A DNA stretch of 64,000 bases from Cytobacillus dafuensis (GTDB lineage Bacteria; Bacillota; Bacilli; Bacillales; Cytobacillaceae), in assembly GCF_007995155.1 (NCBI RefSeq), contig NZ_CP042593.1, positions 166,001-230,000 on the forward strand, given 5' to 3'. The position numbers were made by a program, and so were the translations under genes. Shown here one piece after another: positions 50,192 to 61,935 of the stretch (the first letter of the stretch is position 1; each line of letters starts with the position of its first letter). A model generated the notes under the pieces. The model was not told the origin of the DNA. It saw nothing but the letters and a program-made list of their open reading frames with translations, and made no database searches.

Positions 50192-50995
50192 ATGAAGAAG
50201 ATCGTGTTTCTATCAGCTCTACTACTCTTTGTCATTACGGCTGCCGGATTTTTAGCTTATGCAAAAATGGACCGTAAACCGGTGTCCCAGGCAACAACAA
50301 TTTCCAGTCAAAGTGATCATGTCATCCGGGTGTACGGACCGGGCGGACCACTTGGACCGATCAAGGAAGCTGCTGAACATTTTTCAGCTGAAACGGGTAT
50401 CAAGGTGGAGGTAACAGCCGGACCAGAGGGCAAATGGATCGACCAGGCAAAGCAAGATGCAGATATTATTTTCGGTGGCTCCGAGTATATGCTGCAGGAC
50501 TTCATCTTTAACCACCCCGAAATGATTGACACGAAATCACGAACGGAGCTTTACCCGCGTGCTGCAGGAATATTGGTGAGGAAAGGGAATCCTAAGAAGA
50601 TTGAAAGCCTGGAGGATTTAACGAAAAATGGAGTGAAAATACTCGATGTGAATGGGGCTGGCCAGCTTGGCCTGTGGGAAGACATGGCAGGCAGAAAAGG
50701 GCTAATCGAAGGAATTTCCCAAAATATTACCCTTTCTGTAAAGTCGAGTGCCGAAGCCATTGAACTATGGAAATCGAATTCCAGCCTGGATGCCTGGATT
50801 ACCTATGAATCGTGGCATTACCGGCTCCAGGATGTGACCGACCTGGTCGAACTGCCCGAAGAAGAAAAGCTCTATCGTGGAACGCCGATCGCCCTGACGA
50901 AAATCACCGATCAGAAAAAAGAGGCACAGCAATTCATAGATTATTTAAAAACGGATAAATCTCACCAAATCTTTCAAAAATGGGGCTGGAAGTAA
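50192..50995 (+). CDS. AcfC-like periplasmic-type substrate-binding protein
   Basis: The 267-residue protein has an N-terminal signal or anchor helix (about 1-25) and a type II solute-binding fold. The phrase IRVYGPGGPLGPIKEAAEHF, the DIIFGGSEYML region and LYPRAAGILVRKGNP fit the AcfC/molybdate-binding-like family. GGAGGAAG precedes the ATG. No permease or ATPase is linked, so its partner is unknown. Base composition is higher in GC than the surroundings. Confidence 0.8.
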   Translation: MKKIVFLSALLLFVITAAGFLAYAKMDRKPVSQATTISSQSDHVIRVYGPGGPLGPIKEAAEHFSAETGIKVEVTAGPEGKWIDQAKQDADIIFGGSEYMLQDFIFNHPEMIDTKSRTELYPRAAGILVRKGNPKKIESLEDLTKNGVKILDVNGAGQLGLWEDMAGRKGLIEGISQNITLSVKSSAEAIELWKSNSSLDAWITYESWHYRLQDVTDLVELPEEEKLYRGTPIALTKITDQKKEAQQFIDYLKTDKSHQIFQKWGWK

Positions 50996-51201: not shown

Positions 51202-53211
51202 CTACCACTTTCCTATATTCACAAACGTATCATAAAAGGCAACGTTGTTTTCCCCCATATCTGTCCTTAAAATGTGAACCAATCGATTTACATTAACTTC
51301 GGATTGGGGATACCAGCCTTGGTAAACCAAAAGAACGTCTTTTGGTACTTTATTACTATATACAGCCATAATTTCAATAGTATCTTGAGCGTTAAAGATT
51401 TTTATGACTTCTCCATCAAGAATCCCCAGAGTTTTTGCAACTTCTGAATTAATTTCTATGTATGCTTCTTCTTCAAAATAATCAAGATAATGGAATTGAG
51501 AATTTAGCCTATAGGGATGGTGAGGTGTTATCAGCCAAAAAGGATATTCCGCCGACGGTGCTTCTCCTTTTTTGTATATTGGTATTGGTGGAAGACCGTT
51601 TTGTTCGGCTTCTGTTGAGTAAAATTGGTACTTGCCTGTTTCAGTGGCAAATTTTCGGTCCATCCAGGCCACTTTTGGCTTATACTTTGTTATTGGCTTT
51701 TCAGTCAAATCAGCAATTGACCGAATATTGTATAGCTCAAACACCTGTTCATTAAATTGTGCATTTAGATACTCTTCTTCTGAAGATAAAATAGGGAAAG
51801 AACAGATTCCATCCCGATATTGATTAAGTCGTATGGCTAATTCGTTCATTATATTCCATTCACTGATACTCTCGTAGTATGGAGAGATCGCCTTTTCATT
51901 TAATGCGATAGCCTTATGCCAGGAGTTTGTAACAATATCAAGCTCCTCAAACTGTGTCGTAGTAGGCAAAATTAGATTCGACATTTGTGCTGTAGGGGTT
52001 AAAAATTGATCAACTGTCACAACGAATGGAATATTTTTGATAAACTGCTTAGTAAATCTTGAATCTGGATCTTGTGTGATAGGATTTGCACAGGAAATCC
52101 ACATCATTTCAATAGGTGGCTGCAGGTTTGAGAATTGTAGTTGATTTAAAGATACTATTTGGTTTTTCGTATCTCCAGATTGTTGATTTTTAAATAACAA
52201 TGATTCTCCCTGTTTAAAAAAAATTCCACCGCCAGTCCTACCTATGTCTCCGCAAATCGCAGCTAAAGCCTCTATAGCTCGAACCGTTTGTCCGCCATTG
52301 GAATGTTTTTGTAAGCCACAACCAATTATGTGTGAAACAGATTTGGCATTTTTAAAATAGCTAAGCATTAAGTTGATGGCTTCGTTGGAAACACCACACT
52401 TTAGTAAATATTCCTCTGTATCTATACTTCTCATTGACTCTACAAACGCATCAAATCCAAAGGAGTGATTTTCCAGAAAATCATGGTCAATCAAATCCGC
52501 CTCTATTATTCCTTTCATTAGTACATTAGCAAATGCTCCATCTGTACCAGGAACGATCTGAATATATACATCAGCTATTTCAGCAGTTTGTGTATAGATT
52601 GGATCGATAACGATAATCTTGGTCCCCTTTACTTTTGCTTCCATTAAATTAGGAATGAGATGATTATTAGTGGCAGCAGGATTGGAGCCCCAAATCATAA
52701 TCATAGAAGCAAATCTAATCATAATAGGGTCTGACATTTGAACTGCTCCCATATCATATTGCATTGCTTTTGTCCCAGTAGTGGGGAACGGTGAACCATT
52801 CACTCTCGTTGATTTACCAATACTTGAAAAAAAATTATCTGTCACATAATGATGTACACCTGTATTTCCCGAACCTTTATATAATGCTAGAGGAAGAAAG
52901 TTTCCGAAATACTCATTTATTTTGATCATTTCACTCAATATAAGTTCAAAGGCTTTGTTCCAAGTAATTTGTTTAAGATTACCTGAACCTTTTACTTCTT
53001 GATAATAAGGAAATTTTAACCGATCACGATGATAGTTTTTTTCAATATAAGAAAATCCTTTTGAACACAAATACCCTTTTGAATATGGATTACGAGGATC
53101 ACCAGTTATGTGAACAAGATGGTTATTTTCGACATGAGAAATCATTGTACAAGAACTTGGGCAGTTGACAGGACAAACGTTTTTATACGTTTTAGAACCG
53201 AAACCATTCAT
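51202..53211 (-). CDS. Molybdopterin-dependent oxidoreductase
   Basis: The 669-residue protein belongs to the DMSO reductase superfamily. The N-terminal Fe4S4 cluster has the pattern C-x3-C-x3-C (VCPVNCPSSC) with a later Cys in GYLCSKG. The molybdopterin domains follow, for example GSNPAATNNHL, then VVTVDQFLTPTAQMSNLILP. Nothing in the sequence gives the substrate. No signal peptide is seen, so it is likely cytoplasmic. It is divergent from a four-cluster ferredoxin gene, with an FNR-type box between them. AGGAGGAG precedes the ATG. Confidence 0.88.
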   Translation of the reverse strand: MNGFGSKTYKNVCPVNCPSSCTMISHVENNHLVHITGDPRNPYSKGYLCSKGFSYIEKNYHRDRLKFPYYQEVKGSGNLKQITWNKAFELILSEMIKINEYFGNFLPLALYKGSGNTGVHHYVTDNFFSSIGKSTRVNGSPFPTTGTKAMQYDMGAVQMSDPIMIRFASMIMIWGSNPAATNNHLIPNLMEAKVKGTKIIVIDPIYTQTAEIADVYIQIVPGTDGAFANVLMKGIIEADLIDHDFLENHSFGFDAFVESMRSIDTEEYLLKCGVSNEAINLMLSYFKNAKSVSHIIGCGLQKHSNGGQTVRAIEALAAICGDIGRTGGGIFFKQGESLLFKNQQSGDTKNQIVSLNQLQFSNLQPPIEMMWISCANPITQDPDSRFTKQFIKNIPFVVTVDQFLTPTAQMSNLILPTTTQFEELDIVTNSWHKAIALNEKAISPYYESISEWNIMNELAIRLNQYRDGICSFPILSSEEEYLNAQFNEQVFELYNIRSIADLTEKPITKYKPKVAWMDRKFATETGKYQFYSTEAEQNGLPPIPIYKKGEAPSAEYPFWLITPHHPYRLNSQFHYLDYFEEEAYIEINSEVAKTLGILDGEVIKIFNAQDTIEIMAVYSNKVPKDVLLVYQGWYPQSEVNVNRLVHILRTDMGENNVAFYDTFVNIGKW

Positions 53212-54210: not shown

Positions 54211-55779
54211 ATGAAAAATTCGTTACAAGACATATTACTTACTCTTCCACTCAACCAGCTAAGTTTTGTTACCCATTTACCCAAGGAAAAGGTTTATTAT
54301 AAAACAATTATAGAAGATGTTCCTGATGGCTGGCTTCAGGAACCAACTTTACTTATGATTAAATGTCACGAATGTCTAAATGAGATTAGAACATATAAAA
54401 TATTCAATACATTAATGCAGGATTCAAATTTTGTTGGCCTAGTGATATGTTCTTATAACCCAGTTTTTATTCCAACCCAAATGCAATCCCTTTTTCAACA
54501 ATTCCAATTACCTATTATCATTCTATATGATCCTTCTTTATCTTCATTGTTTCAGAAAGTAGATGAAAAACTTTATAACCATAATCAATTAAGTCTGGAA
54601 TTAAGTGGATTTATCCAAAAAGGTTTTGTGAATATTGCATCGGAACTTGTAAAGGCATTAGATACACCTATGTTGTATTTGGATAGTCGTGATCAGTTAG
54701 TTTGGCAGAAGGGAAAGGAAGATAGTTTAAAGGAGGCTAATCGCTGGTTAAATGTTTTCTATAGAAATCTAAAAAATGACACTTCTTTGAATACCCCCTC
54801 CAATGATAGTGGTAAATCAAAAGAAGAAGCGCATTTTTTTAAACCCTACTTTATTAATATAGGGGGTTTATCCCAACAAACTTTAATTGTCTCCGGAGAT
54901 CTAGTGGATTGGCAAAAAGAAATGATTGATAAATTCATAGGCTTAACAGCTCTCTTATTGCAAATCGAAGAATTATTTCAGGCACAGCAAGAGCAAATTC
55001 AAGATATTTTTGTTTATGAACTTCTTTATAGTAAATTTGAATCGAGATCGTTTATGATCAAACAAGGAAAAATATGGGGTTGGAACTTAGAGAGGCCACA
55101 TTATTTATTAATAGTAAATATGAAACTTTTAGATGATTGTAAAGAGGTAAATTCGTTGGAAGTAATTTCGTCTTTCATAAAGGAGCATAATGAATCATTA
55201 ATCGTATTTCCATTTCAAGGTGAAATCGTTGTATTAGTCGAAGCTATGGAAGCCCAGTTAAAGGGAGAAATCAAAAGATATATTGTAGAAATTGGAAACC
55301 AAATAGAAGAGGCCCTATCAGCTAATTGGACTGGTTATGAATTTTATATTGGGATAGGGGAATTGTATGAAGATTCTACTTATTTAAATAAAAGTTATCA
55401 GGAAGCAAAAATGGCTATGAGATTTGGGAAAAATTGGTTTGAGAATAAGAAAGTTATTCATATTCAAGACCTAGGGATTCTTCAGCTTATTATCAATTTA
55501 GATAATGACTTCCTTTACGATTATATTGAAAGGTATTTAGGCGCATTAATTGACTCTAATCAGAAAAATGAAACTGACTATCTTTATACATTAAAGGTAT
55601 ATTTTCAAAATCACAGAAGAATTAATGAACTTTCTGAAATTTTATACATCCATCCTAACACAATACGGTACCGCTTAAAAAAGATTGAGGATACAACGGG
55701 ACTCCAACTAAATGATACAAATGATGCAATGAATCTAGAGATAGCTGTAAGATTATTTTATTTTCTTAAGGATGTGTAG
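54211..55779 (+). CDS. PucR-family transcriptional regulator
   Basis: The 522-residue protein has an N-terminal PucR-type sensor domain (about residues 5-125), a middle GGDEF-like PucR/CdaR domain (about 250-410) and a C-terminal helix-turn-helix (about 455-515, INELSEILYIHPNTIRYRLK). Family members control catabolic and purine-use operons. It lies between two molybdoenzyme gene sets and could regulate either; a link to molybdopterin use is inference. AAAGGATGA precedes the ATG. Confidence 0.85.
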   Translation: MKNSLQDILLTLPLNQLSFVTHLPKEKVYYKTIIEDVPDGWLQEPTLLMIKCHECLNEIRTYKIFNTLMQDSNFVGLVICSYNPVFIPTQMQSLFQQFQLPIIILYDPSLSSLFQKVDEKLYNHNQLSLELSGFIQKGFVNIASELVKALDTPMLYLDSRDQLVWQKGKEDSLKEANRWLNVFYRNLKNDTSLNTPSNDSGKSKEEAHFFKPYFINIGGLSQQTLIVSGDLVDWQKEMIDKFIGLTALLLQIEELFQAQQEQIQDIFVYELLYSKFESRSFMIKQGKIWGWNLERPHYLLIVNMKLLDDCKEVNSLEVISSFIKEHNESLIVFPFQGEIVVLVEAMEAQLKGEIKRYIVEIGNQIEEALSANWTGYEFYIGIGELYEDSTYLNKSYQEAKMAMRFGKNWFENKKVIHIQDLGILQLIINLDNDFLYDYIERYLGALIDSNQKNETDYLYTLKVYFQNHRRINELSEILYIHPNTIRYRLKKIEDTTGLQLNDTNDAMNLEIAVRLFYFLKDV

Positions 55780-56160: not shown

Positions 56161-59100
56161 ATGAAGCGTAGAGCTTTCTTGAAATTATCAGCGGTTACCG
56201 GGATAGTAGCAGTGGATCCACTTGGGATTTCTTCATCGTTCACTTTTGCAGGTGATCCACCAAAATTTGAGCCTAAGAAATCTAAAGTTAAAGAATTAGA
56301 AGCGATCATCGATACTAAAACAGGAAAAGTAGAAGTTAACCCAAACATTTTTATGAGGAATAGTAATTGTGTGGCCTGTTATGGTAACTGTGGAAACAGA
56401 ATTAAGGTAGATCGTAAAGGCAAGATTCTTAGCGTAACGGGAAATCCTTACAACCCGGAAAATGCCGAATATCCACTTGGTATGGACGAGCCATTAGAAA
56501 ATGCTTATCTAGCTTTCAGCCAATATAAGGGTATGGGCAATAAGAATCGTGCTACTGTCTGTCAACGGGGGAATGCAACAATAGATGCACATTACGATCC
56601 AGATCGGATACTCGTCCCCTTAAAACGTACAGATAAAAGAGGAAAAGGAAAGTGGAAACCGATTACGTGGGAAGAGGCAGTTACTGAAACTGTCGAGGGT
56701 GGACAACTTTTTTCTGATATAGGAGAAACTCAGAAAATTGAAGGATTCCGTCAAGTGTATGATACTAAAACTTTAATTGATCCAAAACAGCCGGAATTTG
56801 GTCCGAAATCCAATCAATTAGTCCTATTTGGCGGGCGCGGCGATGGACGGAATCAAATTTATAGCAGATTTTCCGACGCATTTAGTTCGGTCAACTACTA
56901 TGGTCATGGCTATTCATGAGGAGGTTCTAAAACTCCCGGTTCGGGGGTCAATAAAGGAGCAATTCTTAAGCCTGACATGAATCATGCTGAGTATATTCTG
57001 TATGTTGGAGCTTTTCCAGGTCATAGTGGAAAGCCAACGCAAACGATAGCACGACGGGCTGTAGGTGCTACTACTGATGGAGTACTGAAGTTTACTGTAG
57101 TAGACCCAGTGATGTGTGGGGGTGCTGTTGGACCTATAGGAGATAAAGCGAAGTGGGTTCCGATAAAGCCGACTACAGATGGTGCCTTTGTCATGGCACT
57201 CATTCAATGGATATTTGAAAATAAAAAGTATAATGAAGAATTTTTATCTGCACCATCATTAGACAAAGCCAGACTTCTTGGCTACAACAGTTGGACAAAT
57301 GGTTGTCAACTTGTCATAACAGATCCGGAGCATCCTAATTATAGAAAAATGCTTCGCCCTGCTGATTTAGGGATGCCTGCTTCAGATGAAGAGGAAATAT
57401 TCATCGTGATTGATAAGAAAACAGGTCAACCTGCGCTCCATACAGCGGTAGATGAAGCAGAGATTCTCTATAATGGAAAAATAAAAACAATTGATGGGCA
57501 AACAATAACAGTTCGCACAAGTTTAGACTTCCTTAAGGAAAGCGCTTATGCACATGATATGGAAACATATTCGAAGGAATGTGGCATTCCTGTACAAACA
57601 ATTGAGGAAATAGCGAAGAAATTTACTTCCCACGGAGTTAAAGTTGGAGCGGAGGGTGGTTTTGGCGGAACTTCTGCTTCAAACGGTGTTCAATTGGCAT
57701 TCGCAATGCAAATCCTTCCAGCTTTAATTGGCAGCTATAATAAAAAAGGCGGAATGATGGATAGACGGAAAATGTTTGCCAGTTTTGTAGATGGTCCGAG
57801 ATACAACATGAAAACGATTGAAGGAGCAACTAAGACATCAGGTGTCGTCATAAGTCGTACTGGTGTTCGATATGAGGACACTACAGAATATAAAAATATA
57901 GTTGCTCGCGGTGAAAACCCTTATCCGTCAAAATTTCCGTGGCATCCTGTAGGAAGCGCTTCAGATAACCAAGCCATTTTTTCGATTATTAATCAATATC
58001 CATATCAAGCAAAAATCGTCATGAACTGGATGTTTAACCCGTTATTATCGACACCTTCTGCTGCTAGAAAAGAAGTGATCGAGAAGCTGTGCGATGTAAA
58101 TATCGTTCCTTTGTTTATTTCGTCTGATGCTTTTATGGGCGAAATGACAGCGATAGCAGATTATGTTATTCCTGACACAACTCAGTTTGAGAACTGGGGA
58201 ATAGGTTTTTCAGAGGGTACTATTCCTGTGAAATTGAGTAAAGTCCGCTGGCCGGTAGTAGAGCCAATGACAACGAAAATCTCTGATAACAGATATGCTT
58301 GTATAGAAAACTATCTTATCGATGTATGTAAAAAGGTTGGTATTCCTGGATTTGGTGATAAAGCATTTTCAGACAAAGATGGTAATGTCTATGCAGTTAA
58401 TAATCCAGAGGATTTTTTCCTTCCTGTAATCGCAAACGTAGCTTTTGATGAAGAGCCTGTACCAGATATTAGTGATCATGAGATTGAGCTACAGGGCTTA
58501 AAATCTAAAATGGAAAAATGGAAATCAAGTCTTAAACAAGAAGAGCTTCGAAAAGTAGCCTATGTCATTTCCAGAGGTGGAAGATTTGAAAACCTTGAGA
58601 ATGGGTATGTCGGAGAGGATAAAAGCAATTTCAAATACCCGTTTGAGGGCTGCTTCAAGATTTATGCTGAAGAAGCGGGCTCAGCAAAAGACAGCTATAC
58701 AGGTGAATATTATTCTGGGGTACCTGGCTGGTATCCAGAAACCTTTGCTGATGGAACGCTTCTGACAGAAAAATATTCTGAAACAGAATGGCCGTTTAGA
58801 GGAGCTAATTATAAGCCAAAATTCAGAAGTGTAACTATGTTAGCAAACACAAGACTAAGGGATCTAAGTAAAACAAACTATTTAGAAATAAATACAGATG
58901 ATGCAAAAAAATTAGGACTAAAAACTGGAGACAAAGTGAAGCTAATTGCTGCAACCGGAGGAGAAGTTACAGGAGAGCTGCTTGTTCGTCAAGGTGTTTC
59001 AAAAGGTACTGTAGCTGTAGAATTTGGCTATGGACACTGGGAATATGGTGCAAAAAAACACAAATTAGGGGATAAAACGATTGGTGGAGTTAAGGATATT

Positions 59101-59229
59101 GGAGATGGAGTGAATTTAACTGAAATAAGTTTAATGGATCCTACTTTCGAATATCCATTTGCTTTAAGTGAAATGATGACAGGTAGCGTTAGCCGTAACG
59201 GCGGGCTCTACCGTATTGAGAAAGCGTAG
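56161..59229 (+). CDS. TtrA-like molybdopterin oxidoreductase with in-frame TGA, candidate selenoprotein
   Basis: Read through one TGA (56917-56919), the frame gives 1,022 residues. A twin-arginine-type signal opens it (MKRRAFLKLSAVTG). The Fe4S4 cluster pattern is C-x2-C-x3-C (NCVACYGNCGNR) with CQRG later. The TGA is codon 253, within NYYGHGYS-(TGA)-GGSKTPGS, where TtrA/PsrA/PhsA relatives carry the Cys or Sec that binds molybdenum. The frame is intact on both sides and a SECIS-like hairpin follows. If translated, it is a reductase of the tetrathionate/thiosulfate/arsenate type; the substrate is unknown. The alternative is a nonsense mutation, giving two useless fragments. Confidence 0.8.
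56920..56955 (+). promoter_or_regulatory. Candidate bacterial SECIS element
   Basis: Directly after the TGA, ACTCCC (56932-56937) pairs with GGGGGT (56943-56948), with a 5-base loop GGTTC at 56938-56942. The loop begins GGU, as in E. coli fdhF, and starts 18 bases after the TGA, in the range seen for bacterial SECIS loops. Confidence 0.55.
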
Positions 59230-59239
59230 GTGTGGCGCC

Positions 59240-59914
59240 ATGAATCTGACGACAAATGATCAAGAAACCCTTGCAAGACAAAATACGTATGGATTTCTTG
59301 CCAGCCTATTTTTACAGGAACCTGAAAAGGAAAATATCGAGGAAATTCAACAAAAACTAAACGATTTAATAAATAATATGGATCAAGTATTGATAACGTC
59401 CTCAGAAGAAGTGGATGATTTAATTCAGGAATATTATGACCTGTTCTTTGTCCCATCTTCAGGACAATATGTACCTCCTTTTGAATCAGCTTTGAGAAAC
59501 TATCAGCCAAAGAAAAAGAAGCCGTATGGGAAGCTTTTTAGCAATGATGCTATCCATGTACAATCTTGCTATGATGCTGTTGGCTTTAAACCTTGGAAAT
59601 TGAAAATCTTCAAACCATTAGAGGATGTAAAGTTCCCAGACCATATTGGTTTTGAACTGGCCTTCATGTCTGTATTATGCGCAAACGAGTTTGCTTCCAG
59701 AAATGAGGAAGATAAAGCTTTTCAATGGCAGATGCTTGAATACGAGTTTCTATCTGAGCATCTCAGCGAGTGGATTGGAAATTTCTCATTAGCTATTTCT
59801 AATAATTCAGCTGGCTTTTATCATAAGTGCGCAAGTGCAACACACAAAGTGGTTTTAGAAGATCTTAAGATTTTAGAGGAATTGGCAAATCAAAAGAGAG
59901 GAGAGTTATCATGA
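59240..59914 (+). CDS. TorD-family molybdoenzyme chaperone
   Basis: The predicted protein has 224 residues; the ATG at 59240 is chosen because AGGTG lies before it. It is all helical with the TorD/DmsD pattern, including EYYDLFFVPSSGQYVPPFES and DHIGFELAFMSVLC. It binds the signal peptide of the large subunit and helps cofactor insertion. It follows the TtrA-like gene and overlaps the ferredoxin gene by four bases (ATGA). Confidence 0.88.
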   Translation: MNLTTNDQETLARQNTYGFLASLFLQEPEKENIEEIQQKLNDLINNMDQVLITSSEEVDDLIQEYYDLFFVPSSGQYVPPFESALRNYQPKKKKPYGKLFSNDAIHVQSCYDAVGFKPWKLKIFKPLEDVKFPDHIGFELAFMSVLCANEFASRNEEDKAFQWQMLEYEFLSEHLSEWIGNFSLAISNNSAGFYHKCASATHKVVLEDLKILEELANQKRGELS

Positions 59915-60516
59915 GTACAAACCCAAGATATGCAATGGTCATAGATTTAAGAAAATGTGTAGGATGTCATGCTTGTTCAATTACATGTAAAATGGAAAAT
60001 GATGTGCCAGAAGGGCATTTTCGTTCTTGGGTAGTTGAGGCGGATGTTGGTGTATACCCGAATGTAACAAGAGCAAAATTGCCAAGACTATGTAATCAAT
60101 GTGATGAAGCACCTTGTGCAACAGTATGCCCTGTTGTGGCAACGAAAAAGAATGAAAACGGAATTGTTACTGTTGATAAGGATAAGTGTATTGGCTGTCG
60201 CTATTGTATCGCTGCCTGTCCGTATGACGCACGCTATTTGGATCCAGAGACAGGTATAGCAGATAAATGTGATTTCTGTTTTGATAGAGTAGAAAGTGGA
60301 TTAATGCCAGCCTGTGTTAGTACATGTATTGCTCATTCACGTATATTCGGGGATTTAAATGATCCAAATAGTGAAGTAAGCAAATTATTGAGTGAGAATT
60401 CGATTCAAACCTTAAATCCGGAATATGGAACGAAGTCAAAAGTATATTATATTGGCCTTGATAAAGTCTTTGCAACTCCAGATTTTCAAATCTTAAGAGA
60501 CAAGGAGGCCAATTAA
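59911..60516 (+). CDS. TtrB-like four-cluster 4Fe-4S electron-transfer subunit
   Basis: The 201-residue protein has CVGCHACSITC, CNQCDEAPCATVC, CIGCRYCIAAC and CDFCFDRVESGLMPAC...C groups, giving four [4Fe-4S] clusters. No signal peptide is present, so it would be carried across the membrane with the large subunit by the Tat system. GGAGAG precedes the ATG. It lies between the chaperone and the membrane anchor, as is usual. Confidence 0.95.
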   Translation: MSTNPRYAMVIDLRKCVGCHACSITCKMENDVPEGHFRSWVVEADVGVYPNVTRAKLPRLCNQCDEAPCATVCPVVATKKNENGIVTVDKDKCIGCRYCIAACPYDARYLDPETGIADKCDFCFDRVESGLMPACVSTCIAHSRIFGDLNDPNSEVSKLLSENSIQTLNPEYGTKSKVYYIGLDKVFATPDFQILRDKEAN

Positions 60517-60517
60517 A

Positions 60518-61567
60518 ATGAACGAAACTATCATACTAGACATTCAACACCAAATTCCATTTGGTATGGTTATTGTTTTCTATATTTTTATAGCAGGGAT
60601 GAGTGCAGGGCTATATTTTTTTTCAACCCTCGGTCCCGTATTTGGAATAAAGAAAATGGAGCCCCTTGCAAAACCAGCTAGTGTTATGGCGTTAGCTGCA
60701 GTTATACCTGGTGTCCTTGCATTAATTGTTGATTTAGGTCAGCCTTTAAGATTCTATACTTTATTGTTCAGGTTTAATCCAAGCTCTGCGATGAGCTGGG
60801 GAACCTATATCTTAACAATATTTTCGATTTTGACTCTATTCTATATTTTCTTTTTATGGAAAAAAGACAGTAAGAAAGCTAAGTATTTTGGAATCGCAGG
60901 TCTTGTGTTTGCAATAGCATTAGGTTTGTATACAGGATTTTTGATTGCATTAGCGCCCGCACATCCGTTATGGAATTCAGCGATTATACCAGTTCTATTC
61001 TTGGTATCAGGATTGATCTCAGGATTAAGCATAATTAGTGTATGTGCGGTATTCTTCCCTAAGCTGACCGGGTTAAGTGACAAGAATTCGGAAGAGGTAA
61101 TGCACCATCTTAAAACTTGGTTTATTCTACTTGAATTGACTTTATTAGGAGCACATTTGCTTACATTATTTGTTTCAGATTCAGGCAAAGCGGTATTCAC
61201 TCATTTAGCCACAGGCGATAGAATGGTTTCATTCTTAGTCATTCAAATTGCAATTGGAATGGTGTTACCGTTAATCCTATTGTTAATAAGCAATTCGAAA
61301 ATAATTATGGGTATTTCAAGCTTCTTAAGTTTAATTGGTGTTTTCTTCTTACGTCTCAATATCATTATTGGCGGACAGGAACTTCCTAAAACTGGATCTA
61401 TGATGAATATACCCGAAAATGGTACACACGCGATGATTTTATCGTCTATTTTCATTGTATTAGCTGTTCTACTAATACTATTCTTACCTAAAATTGTTGA
61501 TATAGTATTAAATAGATTCATTACACCAAAACAATATGGAAATAAATCTAAACCACATGCAGGCTAA
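60518..61567 (+). CDS. NrfD/PsrC-like membrane anchor subunit
   Basis: The 349-residue protein has nine to ten transmembrane helices in the NrfD/PsrC pattern (FYIFIAGMSAGLYFFSTLG near the start, DLGQPLRFYTL and RFNPSSAMSWGTYIL). It carries quinol to the ferredoxin subunit. It starts two bases after the ferredoxin stop with GGAGG before the ATG. It completes the catalytic, chaperone, electron-transfer and anchor set. Confidence 0.93.
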   Translation: MNETIILDIQHQIPFGMVIVFYIFIAGMSAGLYFFSTLGPVFGIKKMEPLAKPASVMALAAVIPGVLALIVDLGQPLRFYTLLFRFNPSSAMSWGTYILTIFSILTLFYIFFLWKKDSKKAKYFGIAGLVFAIALGLYTGFLIALAPAHPLWNSAIIPVLFLVSGLISGLSIISVCAVFFPKLTGLSDKNSEEVMHHLKTWFILLELTLLGAHLLTLFVSDSGKAVFTHLATGDRMVSFLVIQIAIGMVLPLILLLISNSKIIMGISSFLSLIGVFFLRLNIIIGGQELPKTGSMMNIPENGTHAMILSSIFIVLAVLLILFLPKIVDIVLNRFITPKQYGNKSKPHAG

Positions 61568-61794: not shown

Positions 61795-61935
61795 TTTTAG
61801 GAATTAAGTACAACGGGCAGGATGTCCTAGTCGGGCGAATGCCACAGGACGTGGCATGTATGAGAGCGATAAGTTCAACTACGCCTCTGTCTTCGCCTTT
61901 CCAAGGCTCGCCAATCGGCGAGTTTTCTTTATTTG
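61795..61935. repeat. Dispersed repeat related to 46880-46972
   Basis: It shares GGATGT-CTAGT and TGCCACAGGACGTGGCA with the first copy. It continues into TTCGCC/GGCGA pairing with AAGGCTCGCC and CGGCGAGTTTTC at the end, which resembles a terminator. Confidence 0.6.

Follow-up and report, generated by a model that had tools for sequence, protein, structure and literature searches.

A 64,000-nucleotide stretch of Cytobacillus dafuensis DNA (the window), located at positions 166001-230000 of a single-contig genome of 4,916,069 bases, contains an operon for a putative molybdenum- or tungsten-dependent oxidoreductase, which consists of a catalytic subunit (A), a chaperone (D), a 4Fe-4S electron-transfer subunit (B), and a membrane subunit (C) (Table 1). 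The sole internal TGA of the A frame is codon 253, in the context NYYGHGYS-(TGA)-GGSK, and it very likely encodes selenocysteine (Sec). The original prediction, made from the window alone, had described this single TGA in an otherwise intact 1,022-codon frame, a hairpin with a GGU loop 12 bases past it, and an intact operon with chaperone, ferredoxin, and anchor genes; all of this was confirmed, the loop being GGTTC and the frames of D, B, and C all open. It had taken the candidate selenoprotein as a single gene; the codon in relatives and a covarying hairpin support the candidate, but it belongs to a whole clade.

Table 1. Features of the locus and of related regions (positions in the window unless another sequence is named)
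Feature	Position	Strand	Basis or remark
ModA-like binding protein	50192-50995	+	SBP_bac_11; about 5 kb upstream of A
Molybdopterin oxidoreductase	51202-53211	-	669 codons
PucR/CdaR-type regulator upstream of A	54211-55779	+	PF13556, PF17853
Catalytic subunit A, 1,022 residues	56161-59229	+	Frame ends with TAG; Sec predicted at 253
Putative twin-arginine leader of A, MKRRAFLK	N-terminus of A		By-eye reading of the sequence
Cysteines C70-x2-C73-x3-C77...C134 of A			Expected N-terminal Fe-S site; by-eye reading
In-frame TGA, codon 253 of A	56917-56919	+	
Selenocysteine insertion sequence (SECIS)-like hairpin	56932-56948	+	12 unpaired bases after TGA; 6 pairs, possible seventh
Hairpin stem	56932-56937 with 56943-56948	+	One pair is T-G
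Hairpin loop	56938-56942	+	GGTTC
TorD/NarJ-type chaperone D	59240-59914	+	PF02613, 71 bits; TIGR03482, 39 bits, below cut-off 152
4Fe-4S electron-transfer subunit B	59911-60516	+	PF13247, 88 bits
NrfD/PsrC-type membrane subunit C	60518-61567	+	PF03916, 136 bits
Terminator-like site	61903-61926		
Cys paralogue of A	C1:1148357-1150993		
selD	C1:2281085-2282011	-	In-frame TGA, KAG-TGA-GCKIGP
Short frame between selD and selA	L020 2597-2833 (C1 near 2282000)	+	CMM-(TGA)-NYAPKA
tRNA-Sec and the split (two-frame) recombinase-like gene just after it (strand and remark for the latter)	L017 9695-9787 and 9908-11024	-	By eye
Sedimentibacter genes after A-D-B	L082 10656-14670		By eye

Codon 253 was mapped by tblastn in all 67 sequences considered (66 loci and the window) and is TGA in 10 and TGT or TGC in 57; nine of the TGA sequences are distinct, since locus L035 duplicates the window. 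Five more TGA loci came from a 398-genome sample of the phylum (L103 among them being identical to the Fuchsiella locus), and Cys was found in nine additional loci (L106-L108 and L111-L116, the latter examined for the codon alone, Cys in 6/6). In total, 13 distinct TGA loci from Bacillota and Thermodesulfobacteriota were found, including the window. These are L065, Tissierella praeacuta (L081), Tissierella sp. P1 (L083), a Sedimentibacter metagenome-assembled genome (MAG; L082), Fuchsiella alkaliacetigena (L096), a Geobacter MAG (L084), Desulfuromusa kysingii (L085), a Firmicutes MAG (L087), and four loci from the phylum genomes (L101, L102, L104, and L105). No third state of the codon occurs among the mapped homologues. 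Similarly, Cys fills this position in all 57 of the 95 database homologues that cover it, and the codon aligns with a Cys of ArrA (6cz7). The original prediction had placed the TGA at the presumed metal-ligand codon, proposed a check of homologues for Cys or TGA there, and noted that random decay would rarely strike this codon alone; a TGA that recurs in 12 further distinct loci, with Cys in all other mapped relatives, is indeed more than chance.

The other 38 database homologues, the protein annotated in the window among them, begin at query residue 260 or later. Start residue aside, four of them are the exact post-TGA portion of a TGA locus: P0002 (the window), P0012 (Rubeoparvulum massiliense, L065), P0026 (F. 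alkaliacetigena, L096), and P0074 (Neomoorella glycerini, L105). Because of these exact matches we regard the annotated proteins as N-terminally clipped, and the TGA is presumably the cause in the remaining 34 as well. A shares 56-66% identity with the 12 remaining TGA proteins over residues 60-252 (for L087, 77 residues only) and 49.5-59% over residues 254-1022, so the part beyond the TGA is not decaying. Among 193 genomes sampled from the same family, 34, that of C. dafuensis included, contain some relative (E 1e-60 or better), and only that of C. dafuensis has the TGA form. In two other genomes (G920 and G958), a TGA form (55% identity) is accompanied by a Cys form (42%).

The stem of the SECIS-like hairpin could be extended by a seventh, G-C pair, which would shrink the loop to GTT. 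A hairpin score of at least 6 in the bacterial SECIS register was obtained for 13/13 TGA loci versus 1/28 Cys loci. Synonymous-codon shuffling, which preserves the protein sequence, gave p values between 0.0005 and 0.11 for individual TGA loci; the combined value is 0.73 for the Cys loci and 5e-13 for the TGA loci, the latter overstating independence and being no true probability because the TGA loci are related. When the TGA loci were aligned by loop centers, which were picked per locus (20, 21, or 23) and thus favor structure, pairing occurs in 84 of the 91 cells, compared with a mean of 57 and a maximum of 68 in shuffles, and changes on both sides of the stem occur at all seven pair positions (26 cells versus a mean of 6.4 and a maximum of 15 in 2,000 shuffles). 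The number of extra pair types, 16, was matched by 5/2,000 shuffles, and slid partners gave just 23 to 42 pairing cells. With the best of three registers allowed to both groups, TGA loci form 5-6 of the 6 pairs and Cys loci 2-5. In a plain count with the best of these registers and G-T as a full pair, all six pairs are formed in 10/13 TGA loci and 0/28 Cys loci, and five of six in 3/13 and 5/28, respectively. The sets used for folding, shuffling, and covariation omit L036-L064 (29 Cys rows) and L035; those for the latter two tests also omit L103 (identical to L096), L066, L069, and L097. It is this set of loci, not the window hairpin alone, that makes the hairpin evidence strong. In addition, the FdhA and FdnG-like genes of the same genome have a hairpin in the same register, at the same distance from their TGA, with the loop GGTCT versus GGTTC at bases +19 to +23.

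The original prediction had proposed a search for selA, selB, selC, and selD, and all four exceed curated cut-offs in the C. dafuensis genome, so that absence of selB or selC cannot be held against it: selB scores 372 bits (cut-off 242), selA 555 (268), selD 400 (125), and a tRNA-Sec match of 93 bases with anticodon loop CTTCAAA 60.5 (gathering score 47). The tRNA evidence is weaker than that from the proteins because the tRNA-Sec family also passes in 5/14 control genomes. PF00384 has 12 matches in 11 genes of this genome, and three of the genes contain one in-frame TGA: A and two formate dehydrogenases, whose read-through products exceed the cut-offs of TIGR01591 (809 bits versus 666) and TIGR01553 (1291 versus 814). 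Among the best 120 of 6,656 matches of SelA, the nearest named ones are from Bacillus sp. FJAT-49705 (95%) and Bacillus sp. FJAT-29790 (77%); further ones, Cytobacillus included, are at 73% and less. Since selB is over the cut-off in 170/193 genomes of the same family, the Sec trait is ordinary there, in contrast to the TGA enzyme. It is also over the cut-off in all 12 other TGA genomes (13 handles, two of which are one genome), the match in G971 spanning 272/581 positions.

Several observations around these genes can be added. The selD gene itself has one in-frame TGA, like Sec-type selenophosphate synthetases. Between selD and selA lies a short frame with a TGA followed by a hairpin, which by eye resembles a SelW-like CxxU selenoprotein. 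Just after the tRNA-Sec gene, a split gene similar to tyrosine recombinases may be what is left of an element with selC as its attachment site.

Phylogenetic trees of 64 and 60 rows were built by a quick method with midpoint rooting and with support from the Shimodaira-Hasegawa-like approximate likelihood ratio test (SH-aLRT) only. The 64 rows include 23 hand-picked proteins of the 95 from the database; neither tree holds a formate dehydrogenase or a characterized SrdA. The 64-row tree omits L103, L066, L069, and L079, and the 60-row tree omits near-copies or long branches (L097, P0011, L072, P0085, P0083, P0090, and L108) and has three rows added. In both trees all 13 TGA rows fall in one clade with SH-aLRT 100, which also includes Cys rows (11, or 10 in the 60-row tree) that form two distinct groups nested within it, the first with the Christensenella MAG and the second with Eggerthellaceae; nested Cys rows are L090, L093, L100, L086, and P0008-P0011. 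The TGA/Cys label requires three changes on the tree, and the starred branches force three. The simplest reading is one gain of Sec and two losses, the nested groups suggesting two Sec-to-Cys reversions; L105 and L104, which branch off first within the clade (forks 83-99), both have TGA. Of the hosts of nested Cys forms, Eggerthella sinensis and the Christensenella MAG have selB, and Slackia equolifaciens has none over the cut-off. Two annotated TtrA proteins (from Citrobacter and Pseudomonas plasmids) and the Cys paralogue from the C. dafuensis genome fall outside the TGA clade in the 60-row tree.

Both the domains of A (PF00384 and PF01568, above gathering score) and its predicted fold fit the MopB (dimethyl sulfoxide reductase) superfamily. 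Two AlphaFold models were computed from hand-picked inputs, A1 (22 rows) and A2 (65 rows); the first was discarded, as its predicted local distance difference test (pLDDT) score was below 50 at residues 250-267, and the second has pLDDT 90 there. The best curated families are TtrA (NF011567) for A and TtrB (NF011569) for B, both below the cut-off (781 bits versus 1750 and 237 versus 416). Scores of A are also below the cut-offs of ArrA (96 versus 1600) and formate dehydrogenases (TIGR01591, 77 versus 666; TIGR01553, 33 versus 814), and family scores, tree, and gene neighbors all failed to name a substrate. To ArrA (6cz7) A is 23% identical, and it differs in the predicted Sec. With Sec formate dehydrogenases (FdhA/FdnG type) and FwdB it would share Sec as a ligand of Mo or W, but those enzymes act in formate/CO2 chemistry, and the motif is U-GGSK in A versus UH in the two formate dehydrogenases of the same genome and a UHxP-type motif in the available part of a review table (PMC13188914).

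We estimate a probability of about 0.9 that UGA 253 is decoded as Sec and that A is a Mo/W reductase of the TtrA/SrdA/ArrA type, exported and linked to quinol. The codon, its conservation, the covariation of the hairpin, the Sec genes, and the operon are observed directly, and related families suggest how these parts would work together. SelB would carry Sec-tRNA(UCA), bind to the hairpin immediately 3' of the UGA, and insert Sec at position 253, where it would be the protein ligand of a bis-pterin Mo or W. Chaperone D would hold A until the cofactor is loaded, the twin-arginine leader would export the complex, and subunits B and C would pass electrons from quinol to an external acceptor. As substrate, a compound of sulfur, selenium, or arsenic is the most likely, for example a polythionate, selenate, or arsenate. 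On this reading, the TGA proteins would constitute a new family of selenoproteins that represents the Sec version of an enzyme lineage already known; insertion of Sec is very likely, and the function class is likely.

Some results weigh against this interpretation, in addition to the two qualifications of the hairpin statistics given above. The window hairpin alone is only mildly unusual (synonymous-shuffle p 0.11; folding z -1.55), and single-sequence folding z-scores of TGA and Cys loci overlap without separation, which is why the fixed-register, synonymous-shuffle, and covariation tests were used. Presence of selB alone cannot mark the TGA form, because selB is over the cut-off in 10/12 Cys-only handles, the other two being G279 and G980 (S. 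equolifaciens); handles G241 and G977 in this set share the same place and probably represent a single genome. As the TtrA and ArrA cut-offs are not reached, the substrate is not fixed by family, and in the fold search formate dehydrogenase and acetylene hydratase models tie with ArrA within 1 Z. Finally, no NrfD relative (E 1e-8) was found near the operon in 5/5 named TGA loci with 6-kb flanks; therefore the electron path may differ between members.

The alternative that survives best concerns the substrate alone: A could be a tetrathionate reductase in function, with Sec. TtrABC is similar in size, has 4Fe-4S and NrfD-type partners, and includes the best curated family of A, and an annotated plasmid TtrA is 35% identical to A over 94%. 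On the other hand, A scores far below the TtrA cut-off, has a predicted Sec in place of the Cys ligand, and belongs to a clade separate from both annotated TtrA rows; the gene order is A-D-B-C versus ttrB-ttrC-ttrA, and the upstream regulator is of the PucR type versus ttrS-ttrR in the Citrobacter locus. We regard this function as possible but on balance improbable. The Cys paralogue in the same genome, which is 35% identical to A and lies in a separate clade, is presumably SrdA-like, judging by its B-C-A gene order.

It is unlikely that A, with Sec inserted, is something other than a respiratory reductase of sulfur, selenium, or arsenic compounds, for example an oxidase of a reduced substrate or an enzyme acting on an organic compound. 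Such a function would agree with the lack of a curated substrate family and with the tie in the fold search, and those Sec enzymes of the superfamily that are mentioned in the available parts of PMC13188914, PMC7331816, and PMC10100899 act on formate or CO2. However, A is much closer to the TtrA model than to the formate dehydrogenase models, and its partners are TtrB-like (B) and NrfD-type (C); the trees, having no formate dehydrogenase rows, do not reach this question. A nonsense mutation, a sequencing error, or a recent pseudogene of a Cys enzyme might be imagined, given that TGA is one base from TGT and TGC, that the window hairpin is weak by itself, and that no TGA form (E 1e-60 or better) appears in any of the remaining 192 sampled genomes of the family, but the TGA shared with 12 other distinct loci, the covarying hairpin after it, the 769 open codons that follow with orthologue-level identity, and the open partner genes make this extremely improbable. 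That the TGA is bypassed, or is read as another residue by suppression or an altered code, is hardly credible with just one TGA in the frame, Cys as the aligned residue, and Sec genes together with two TGA formate dehydrogenases in the genome.

Returning to the operon of the exported reductase proposed here, A-D-B are contiguous in the window and in 12/12 other TGA loci. A relative of C (E 1e-8) is present in L065, where it is cut by the locus end, and near the Cys loci L088, L089, and L093; none was detected in L086 and L090. In Sedimentibacter, the genes that follow A-D-B encode, by eye, a ferredoxin-like protein, a binding protein of the ABC type, and a histidine kinase, and T. praeacuta has downstream open reading frames of similar size. 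From its position, the PucR/CdaR-type gene possibly regulates the operon. The terminator-like site downstream of C is weak evidence, because the region has four such sites in total and shuffles give nearly as many (3.7). Weak relatives (22-23% identity) of the upstream ModA-like protein are encoded upstream of the TGA gene in both Tissierella loci. The neighboring molybdopterin oxidoreductase has Phe in the column of the formate dehydrogenase metal-ligand Cys/Sec (VNGSPFPTTG), with an alignment that may be 1-2 residues off.

In their available parts, two family surveys describe the TtrA/SrdA lineage as Cys-ligated and group the SrdA selenate reductase in the family of A in their trees (PMC7331816, PMC10100899). 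A 2026 review tabulates 119 selenoprotein families or subfamilies (PMC13188914); in the accessible text of its table the family of A is not among them, no molybdopterin-dependent catalytic subunits other than formate dehydrogenase and FwdB were found, and the 'tetrathionate reductase family octaheme c-type cytochrome' is a cytochrome, judging by its name and model, and not A. In the available parts of these three sources, Sec is likewise given as a Mo/W ligand for no enzymes but formate dehydrogenases and FwdB. We found no report of Sec in the TtrA/SrdA lineage in the accessible parts of the literature covered, which included PMC13188914, PMC7331816, PMC10100899, PMC3306737, PMC2500031, PMC11574389, PMC5029168, and PMC9387241 (supplements, most subscription papers, and preprints lay outside the search).

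A Sec clade inside or beside the TtrA/SrdA lineage broadens the possible roles of Sec-containing Mo/W enzymes and, judging from the available part of a published debate, touches the question of the ancestral ligand (PMC7331816). It also offers natural Sec-to-Cys pairs, both in the nested Cys groups and in the two genomes with side-by-side forms, and the TGA codon accounts for a set of N-terminally clipped database proteins. According to the accessible description, one TGA host, F. alkaliacetigena, uses nitrate, selenate, AQDS, and trace thiosulfate (PMC9387241), which is suggestive only as a hint to the substrate. It is doubtful that the clade represents a separate Sec-ligated respiratory lineage with some members respiring selenate. 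If this were true, an enzyme that needs selenium would reduce selenium oxyanions, and the substrate would supply the making of its own catalyst.
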